A stretch of DNA of 31,729 nucleotides from a virus: positions 1-31,729 of the IMG/VR virus record IMGVR_UViG_3300036852_000182; one strand, given 5' to 3'. A program made the translations under genes and the position numbers. This document shows, piece by piece, positions 1-1,508 of the stretch. The notes beneath the pieces are model-generated. The model saw only the letters and a program-made list of their open reading frames with translations, was not told the origin of the DNA and did no database searches. Positions within the stretch are counted from its first letter, which is position 1. Each line of letters starts with the position of its first letter.

Positions 1-1508
1 ATTCCACTACGCTTCCTATAGGCTTGCAGGGCCTGAGAGGGATGAATCTGGCCAGCCCAAGTCTCATTATCTGTCAAAACGATAAAGGCATCCACCTCAA
101 GCTCATGGCAGGTAGCATAGATCATTGGCAGGGCACAGTCGGTGCTACCAAAGTTATTATGTCTGGTCACCTTCAGGGCGTCAGTGAGGCGCATGTTTGG
201 GGTAATGCCAAGATCAATAAATCCATCCATTGCATCCCGCTGCTCGTGCTGCCTGAAGTAGCGTCCACCCTGTGGGCCAGCCGTGAAACCATGGATGAAA
301 TAGTTCTTCTCCGTCTTGGCACACGCTAGGGCCATTGCAGCGGCACCCTCAGCACAGCTGATTGGCAACCCACCGCATGGACTGCTCATGCTGCCACTCA
401 CATCAATACCAAACATCAGCCGCTTACCAGTGGGTTCTATGTTCTTGAAGCACAGGTAGAAGGTATCATTGAGGGCATCCACCACAGCGGGCACCACATC
501 CCACTCACCCTTACCTCGCAACCCCCGACCACTCTCGTAGGTCTTCATAGCAATCAAGACCTGGATTGGGTGGAGGCGAGCATTTTTTAGGGCTACCTCG
601 TTATGTAGACGTTCCACCACTGTTGAACTAGCTCTACTGAGAGGCTTCAACAGCCCAACCTTACTCATGTTGCCAAGGTTACGAATCATAGCCTCTGGGG
701 GCATCCTATCAAGCAACGCCTCCCACACCTCAGGCTTCGTGAGAGCTTCGGTGGGGAGCATTTCCCTACTGAGGTTGTTATAGCGAATGTTATCTACTAT
801 AAAATCAACATCCCCACTATGTTTCACGTTCTCGAATGCAATGATGACATCCGATGCTAGGTTGGGATTACCCTCAGACGAGAACCCATCCACTACCCAC
901 TTATAGACAGCATTCCTAGCAGGATCCTTTGTCTTCGGATGACTCAGCCTTAGGGCATCCGCATTGCTCCAACCATCCCTGCTCTGATACTTGACAACCT
1001 GATACGCGAGCCTACCCAGTGGCTGATCGTTATACCATGAGGCTACCGCCCTTTTGAGCCCTCTACCCCACCCTCTGAGCCCTTCAACGTAAGTGAGGAA
1101 GTGGAATAGATGAGTGGGAATACGACACACCTTGCCCAAATTGGATAGAGCGAGCGCCCGGGTCTGATCATCCCCAATAGACGCAGCGAGAGCCAGAGCA
1201 AAAATTGCAGGATCATTCTTCGGGGCCCTTCCGCCATCACTTATCTCCACAATTGTCTTGACCACCCTTGGACCATCAGCCTTGATGGCTGCAATCACCC
1301 TGAGAGCGCTCTCCTTTGTGAGCTTCCTCTCACTCACATAGTAGGTGCCACCCTCACTCCCAAGCACCAAGAAACGCTCCAGGGCTTTGAAGTCATCCAG
1401 CTTGTAGACAAACCCCCCGGCGCTGTTTTCCACCTGATCAACAAGTGGAATGGGCTCGCTCTGTGGGGTGATCTTCGTGTTGAACGAACTATACGGACTT
1501 GTGCTCAT
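1..1508 (-). CDS. rsr: Ro60/TROVE-vWA RNA-binding protein (3' end outside window)
   Basis: Ro60 proteins are ring-shaped HEAT-repeat RNA chaperones that bind Y RNAs and misfolded or 3'-ended RNAs. The reading frame runs unbroken for 502 codons from ATG 1508 off the left edge. Residues about 92-102 read GRAPKNDPAIF, a hallmark of the TROVE domain, followed by helical segments with GWGRGLKRAVASWYN and DGWSNADALRLSHP, then VWEALLDRMP and IRNLGNMSKVGLL. A C-terminal von Willebrand A domain starts near residue 365 with the MIDAS motif FGIDVSGSMSS. Usual family length is about 530-540 aa, so roughly 30-40 residues are missing. The ATG overlaps the stop of the upstream small gene (ATGA) and has GAGG eight bases upstream. 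The Asn in GWSN lies where vertebrate Ro has a His that I recall contacting Y RNA; this needs an alignment. Family assignment is very secure. Confidence 0.95.
   Translation of the reverse strand, partial: MSTSPYSSFNTKITPQSEPIPLVDQVENSAGGFVYKLDDFKALERFLVLGSEGGTYYVSERKLTKESALRVIAAIKADGPRVVKTIVEISDGGRAPKNDPAIFALALAASIGDDQTRALALSNLGKVCRIPTHLFHFLTYVEGLRGWGRGLKRAVASWYNDQPLGRLAYQVVKYQSRDGWSNADALRLSHPKTKDPARNAVYKWVVDGFSSEGNPNLASDVIIAFENVKHSGDVDFIVDNIRYNNLSREMLPTEALTKPEVWEALLDRMPPEAMIRNLGNMSKVGLLKPLSRASSTVVERLHNEVALKNARLHPIQVLIAMKTYESGRGLRGKGEWDVVPAVVDALNDTFYLCFKNIEPTGKRLMFGIDVSGSMSSPCGGLPISCAEGAAAMALACAKTEKNYFIHGFTAGPQGGRYFRQHEQRDAMDGFIDLGITPNMRLTDALKVTRHNNFGSTDCALPMIYATCHELEVDAFIVLTDNETWAGQIHPSQALQAYRKRSG

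Follow-up and report, generated by a model that had tools for sequence, protein, structure and literature searches.

The virus-derived stretch of DNA analysed here (IMG/VR record IMGVR_UViG_3300036852_000182, positions 1-31,729; 31.7 kb, referred to as the window throughout) encodes a Ro60 protein, an RNA quality-control factor most familiar as an autoantigen in humans, together with four minimal Y RNAs, the customary RNA partners of Ro60, each of which lies within a few nucleotides of a tRNA gene on the Ro60 strand (Table 1). Computation establishes the family and fold of the protein as well as the four RNAs with their structure and gene order. We read the locus as a phage Ro60 ribonucleoprotein, with a probability of about 0.7, in which a single Ro60 ring protein would partner the four Y RNAs; the RNAs would probably be produced alongside tRNAs, and the particle would serve RNA surveillance or repair. 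The carriage of Ro60 by phages is already known. What appears to be new is that the locus has four short Y RNAs and sets them tightly beside tRNA genes, which makes it a variant of a known ribonucleoprotein system; this pairing looks little noticed, a judgement that leaves an earlier account of Y RNAs in bacteria and phages (Chen et al. 2014, RNA 20:1715) outside the comparison. An initial annotation of the same DNA had picked up the Ro60 protein and missed its partner RNAs, the four Y RNA genes beside the tRNA genes.

Table 1. Position, strand and supporting evidence of the principal features of the window.
Feature	Position	Strand	Evidence and remarks
Ro60 (TROVE + vWA) gene	3..1508	-	3' end cut by contig edge; 502 aa present
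63-aa ORF	1505..1696	-	Stop overlaps Ro60 start (ATGA); no family
tRNA-Arg(CCT)	1916..1991	-	ARAGORN; Rfam 67 bits
tRNA, called Ile(TAT)	1997..2091	-	ARAGORN; Rfam 58.7 bits; 95 nt
Y RNA	2100..2160	-	R1 42.7 bits, E 7.5e-8; 8 nt before tRNA-Ile
Y RNA	2757..2824	-	R1 33.5 bits, E 9.5e-6; fold z -3.1; 11 nt after tRNA-Trp
tRNA-Trp(CCA)	2836..2907	-	ARAGORN; Rfam 32.2 bits; flanked by Y RNA on both sides
Y RNA	2912..2970	-	R1 34.0 bits, E 7.5e-6; 4 nt before tRNA-Trp
Y RNA	3247..3308	-	R1 34.1 bits, E 7e-6; fold z -3.9; 5 nt after tRNA-His
tRNA-His(GTG)	3314..3390	-	ARAGORN; scores under Rfam's tRNA gathering cut-off
cREC_REC, cyclic-phosphate processing Receiver domain	9063..9410	-	Pfam PF20274 2e-24
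Terminase large subunit	15637..17106	+	phrog_2 1.3e-31; tailed-phage marker
Portal protein	18099..20375	+	PF16510 8.9e-9, phrog_156 3e-26
Major head protein	21296..22660	+	phrog_14242 1.6e-24; 81% identical in G001

A phage-encoded Ro60 protein

The tailed-phage origin proposed for the contig is confirmed by its large terminase, portal and major head protein genes, recognised with Pfam and PHROGs. Identity between this terminase and those of known phages is only about 25%, too low to assign a host. A small methyltransferase is encoded amid the structural genes (29064-29639, plus strand; phrog_6636, 6.1e-17), and a cpYpsA gene, for a circularly permuted SLOG-family protein (5182-5643, minus strand; 2.9e-24), shares the minus-strand block of Ro60.

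The Ro60 product is matched by the Pfam profiles TROVE (PF05731, 7.5e-42) and vWA_Ro60 (PF25045, 5.9e-35) and by the PHROGs family phrog_850 (RNA-binding protein, 3.6e-69), which bears out the assignment of a TROVE and vWA protein to this part of the contig. The gene, initially given as 1-1508, runs along the minus strand from 1508 to 3. It starts with an ATG at 1508, with an in-frame GTG upstream at 1538, and its frame is open without a stop down to base 3, where the contig ends. The nearest relatives of full length comprise 537 (L012) and 534 (L011) residues, against 502 in the window, so that approximately 35 C-terminal residues are missing and the description of the gene as intact was mistaken.

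An AlphaFold model of the protein, built with 69 aligned sequences, has a mean pLDDT of 93.2 and a pTM of 0.90. Its HEAT ring and vWA domain align to Ro60 structures over residues 14-502, the outcome of a structural comparison of residues 1-502 that had been suggested as a check. Against RNA-bound Xenopus Ro60 the model scores Z 32.5 (rmsd 3.3, 468 residues), and against Deinococcus radiodurans Rsr (2nvo) Z 30.1 over 439 residues, with Foldseek matches reaching E values down to 1e-35. The last part of the vWA domain falls beyond the contig; the MIDAS residues (D369, S371, S373, T456 and D480) all lie within the window and are invariant in the 69 sequences. Residues K173, R177 and H190 align to Xenopus K170, R174 and H187, which we take to be Y RNA contact residues, and are kept in 69, 69 and 65 of the 69 sequences, respectively; the presumed contacts, whose inspection had also been recommended, are all present. 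Profiles, fold, MIDAS and presumed contact residues together support the identification of a phage-encoded Ro60 homologue.

Such homologues are far more widespread than the "few phages" initially supposed. A phage collection yielded 347 records with a Ro60 match, 338 of them covering at least 80% of the query, the best named relative being that of mycobacteriophage I3 (45% identity over 99% of the query). In IMG/VR, a search with the window protein as a single sequence returned no relatives, and a profile of nine sequences found Ro60 relatives encoded in 272 stretches. The surprise voiced at a phage Ro60 was likewise overstated: phage Ro proteins are routinely annotated, and the structure of the Thermus phage phiLo Ro60 has been solved (9l5y; ~20% identical to the window protein, Z 18.7). 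The initial annotation also knew of no description of its role in infection, and we found no paper that demonstrates such a role or settles the job of Ro60 in phage infection. One Ro60 goes under another name: in Agrobacterium phage Atu_ph07 (L009) a clear Ro60 (record 93591-95246) is annotated 'Clp protease-like protein', and two Y RNA matches in that genome lie far from it, at 446654 and 467020.

In a tree of 123 Ro proteins from phages and bacteria, the phylogeny that had been called for, the window protein groups with L012 and L011, both of them viral, with 100% support, placing its nearest kin among viruses. The virus/bacterium label switches 18 times over the tree, and at least 10 of these switches are forced by starred branches; this alternation indicates repeated transfer of the Ro60 gene between phages and bacteria.

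Four short Y RNAs on the Ro60 strand

A repeated CCGA...GTTATC, a combination likewise characteristic of animal Y RNAs, was first noticed by eye on the Ro strand. The window holds three copies of the pattern CCGAN{8,9}GTTATC where 0.03 would be expected, and none of 100 shuffles reaches three. (An early pattern, G[GT]CCGA...TTGAC, was dropped as mostly noise.) Across 160 Ro loci the motif lies on the Ro strand by 76:7 in the 80 viral loci and by 88:4 in the 80 bacterial ones. Folding outward from it revealed a closing stem and, unsought, a CTTG or CATG before the 3' closing strand.

We then represented the class by a covariance model, R1, made from 30 short Y RNA examples, none of which comes from the window, which serves as a hold-out. 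Because the closing stem was used to choose these examples, little can be concluded from its covariation. In the upper stem, which played no part in selection, pairing reaches 83% and 8 of the 9 pairs show both-side changes; the full structure is 90% paired as opposed to 36-46% when the partner strand is slid. R1 has 107 matches in a set of 77 viral Ro loci and 85 in a bacterial set of 80, every one on the Ro strand. When entire viral contigs are scanned, 66 of 75 matches fall within 3 kb of Ro60 and 73 of 75 are on its strand, the density within 3 kb being ~78 times that elsewhere.

The four RNAs of the window all lie on the Ro60 strand, at most 2 kb upstream of the gene. They are 59-68 nt long and combine a closing stem and the bases CCGA with a GUUAUC-containing upper stem and a CUUG that precedes the 3' strand of the closing stem; they have no T arm and lack a tRNA-like domain. 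Three carry the exact motif and were first spotted through it. The fourth, at 2912-2970, has GUUACC (GTTACC in the DNA) in place of GUUAUC, is absent from the motif list and was detected by R1 alone. Rfam returned no Y RNA in the window at either gathering or loose thresholds, and its YrlA family (RF02553) went unmatched both across the window (E<=1) and in positions 1400-5000 (E<=10). R1 detects a class of short Y RNA that Rfam did not report here.

Pairing of Y RNA and tRNA genes

Read along the Ro strand, the genes run tRNA-His, Y RNA; Y RNA, tRNA-Trp, Y RNA; Y RNA, tRNA-Ile, tRNA-Arg; two small ORFs; and Ro60. The gaps between each Y RNA and its tRNA are, in the same order, 5, 4, 11 and 8 nt. 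Under random placement within the 1.5-kb tRNA cluster, the chance of all four lying this close is roughly 2e-5. The tRNA called Ile(TAT) has a long variable arm of the kind found in Leu, Ser and Tyr tRNAs, and its Ile assignment is doubtful.

Only 1 of the 92 other R1 matches in viral Ro loci lies within 25 nt of a tRNA, and pairing with tRNAs is therefore not a general feature in the vicinity of Ro60. Among the 11 Y RNAs that lie over 3 kb from Ro60, on the other hand, five adjoin a same-strand tRNA (Pro, Trp, Phe, Pro and Phe, at 2, 2, 3, 4 and 7 nt), which indicates that, at a distance from Ro60, Y RNA genes tend to accompany tRNA genes. Further Y RNAs found by motif closely follow a tRNA in Gordonia phage Sixama (three), Rhodococcus phage Trina (one) and three bacterial loci, their CCGA lying 9-14 nt past the tRNA. 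As a separate observation, 284 of the 285 tRNAs called within ~4 kb of Ro60 in the bacterial loci (L091-L170) are on the Ro60 strand, and several loci hold 15-29; some of these calls may be tRNA-like Y RNAs, and some of the contigs may be prophages or mobile elements.

Comparison with known systems

The nearest relative of the window is the 76-kb contig that encodes L011 (G001, IMGVR_UViG_3300036859_000186). The two are syntenic, with identities of 57% for Ro60, 65% for terminase, 66% for portal and 81% for the head protein. Like the window, G001 has Y RNAs (five matches, E 5e-7 to 8e-4), one of them 7 nt from a tRNA-Phe and one just downstream of Ro60, a part missing from the window. Unlike the window, it carries other tRNAs, and neither cREC nor RtcB was found in it.

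The Ro-like proteins of actinophages (Bixzunavirus I3, Sixamavirus, Stanwilliamsviridae and Trinavirus) are full-length Ro60 and at best 45% identical to that of the window. As in the window, tRNA genes lie near Ro in all seven loci read and Y RNA signals in several; YrlA, a bacterial Y RNA family that is encoded near Ro60 and has a tRNA-like domain, shows weak matches close to the Ro genes of I3, Farewell, Sixama and Trina. In contrast, the four Y RNAs of the window are all short, have no such domain and each abut a tRNA. The three Y RNAs of Sixama also lie a few nucleotides after tRNAs, but two of the three are long. D. radiodurans Rsr, of similar fold, is tethered to PNPase by a Y RNA (cited in PMC7790460), a tethering demonstrated for the Deinococcus protein.

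Y RNAs have also been proposed near an Rsr-like gene of Listeria phage CKA15 (PMC12282133), for which we used Listeria phage P100 (L195, DQ004855) as a proxy. P100 gave no R1 match and no TROVE match by Pfam, and its gp165 only a weak profile match around a DVSGSM motif. This phage pair consequently supplies no transcription evidence for the R1 class. The P100 minus strand contains instead, inside a tRNA cluster upstream of gp165, a match to ROOL RNA (L195:34073-34624, record 124072-124623; 86 bits, E 1.2e-16) that is strong but under the gathering threshold of 99.1. Judged from P100, the unexplained and very abundant RNA of CKA15 (PMC12282133) might be ROOL rather than a Y RNA. In the same region (L195:33715-39373), DQ004855 annotates tRNAs on the plus strand, whereas Rfam places them on the minus strand, that of gp165.

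A model for the Ro60 locus and its alternatives

With Deinococcus and animal Ro60 as a base, we infer how such a particle could be transcribed, processed and put to use. tRNA-Y RNA precursors would be transcribed together and cut by host tRNA-processing enzymes, maturing the Y RNAs. The stem of a Y RNA would sit on the outer face of the Ro60 ring at K173/R177/H190 and control access to the cavity, which the 3' tails of misfolded or cleaved RNA would enter; Ro60 would perhaps hand such RNA to host PNPase, as in Deinococcus. The particle may in this way police tRNA and structured RNA during infection, in RNA surveillance or repair; a review of jumbo phages counts TROVE proteins among RNA repair systems, as an RNA-repair platform (PMC7824862). 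We consider the odds evenly balanced on a more specific proposal, that tRNA-processing enzymes free both RNAs from tandem transcripts, which would tie the supply of Ro60 particles to phage tRNA expression and allow Y RNA genes to move with tRNA arrays, away from Ro60.

A different emphasis, which we consider rather unlikely though worth weighing, is that the locus serves counter-defence, with the tRNA set, Ro60, Y RNAs and cREC acting together to blunt anticodon nucleases of the host: cut tRNAs would be replaced, their halves cleared or repaired and cyclic-phosphate signals removed, RNA turnover being secondary. In Salmonella, damaged tRNAs induce an operon made up of Ro60, Y RNAs and RtcBA (PMC7790460), and tRNA arrays are regarded as putative antidefence (PMC12803027). 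The review of jumbo phages treats cREC as a likely cyclic-phosphate enzyme (PMC7824862). The cREC gene of the window lies in the same minus-strand block as Ro60, making it a possible RNA-end or signal-processing partner, and cREC occurs in 7 of the 49 Ro phage records searched, all Ro-bearing and the window included (6 of 48 viral relatives). Against this, the Y RNAs of the window lack the tRNA-like domain that has been proposed as a nuclease decoy, no YrlA match lies in the window, and RtcB was not found in the nearest relative. Our favoured reading, for its part, has to accommodate that RtcB appears in only 2 of the 48 viral Ro60 relatives, and that neither it nor another RNA ligase was recognised among the window ORFs scanned, the contig being a fragment.

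The short distances of 4-11 nt to tRNA genes, and the overlap of one element with a weak terminator-like site (3263-3249), would also fit an account in which the elements, instead of being Y RNAs, serve the tRNA operon as hairpins for processing, termination or attenuation. We consider this highly improbable, because most viral relatives carry the same RNA beside Ro60 with no tRNA nearby, and because the strand bias, the ~78-fold enrichment, the invariant positions of CCGA and GUUAUC and the covarying stems all fit a Ro60 ligand; nor is there an excess of terminator-like sites. A promoter and terminator scan gave results close to chance overall and is given no weight as evidence. Equally little credence is given to Ro60 being an inert or decaying passenger taken from a host. 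The alternation of viral and bacterial labels on the Ro tree and the truncation of the gene at the contig edge are compatible with that account, but all MIDAS and presumed contact residues are kept, the open frame is without lesion, the closest kin are viral (one of them a syntenic phage) and four Y RNAs have been retained.

The Ro60 ribonucleoprotein that we favour is a testable unit, comprising a confidently modelled protein, four RNAs compact enough for chemical or enzymatic synthesis and a gene order that predicts how these would be made. More generally, R1 detects Y RNA-tRNA pairs in several further viral contigs as well, which connects Ro60 with the supply or repair of tRNAs.
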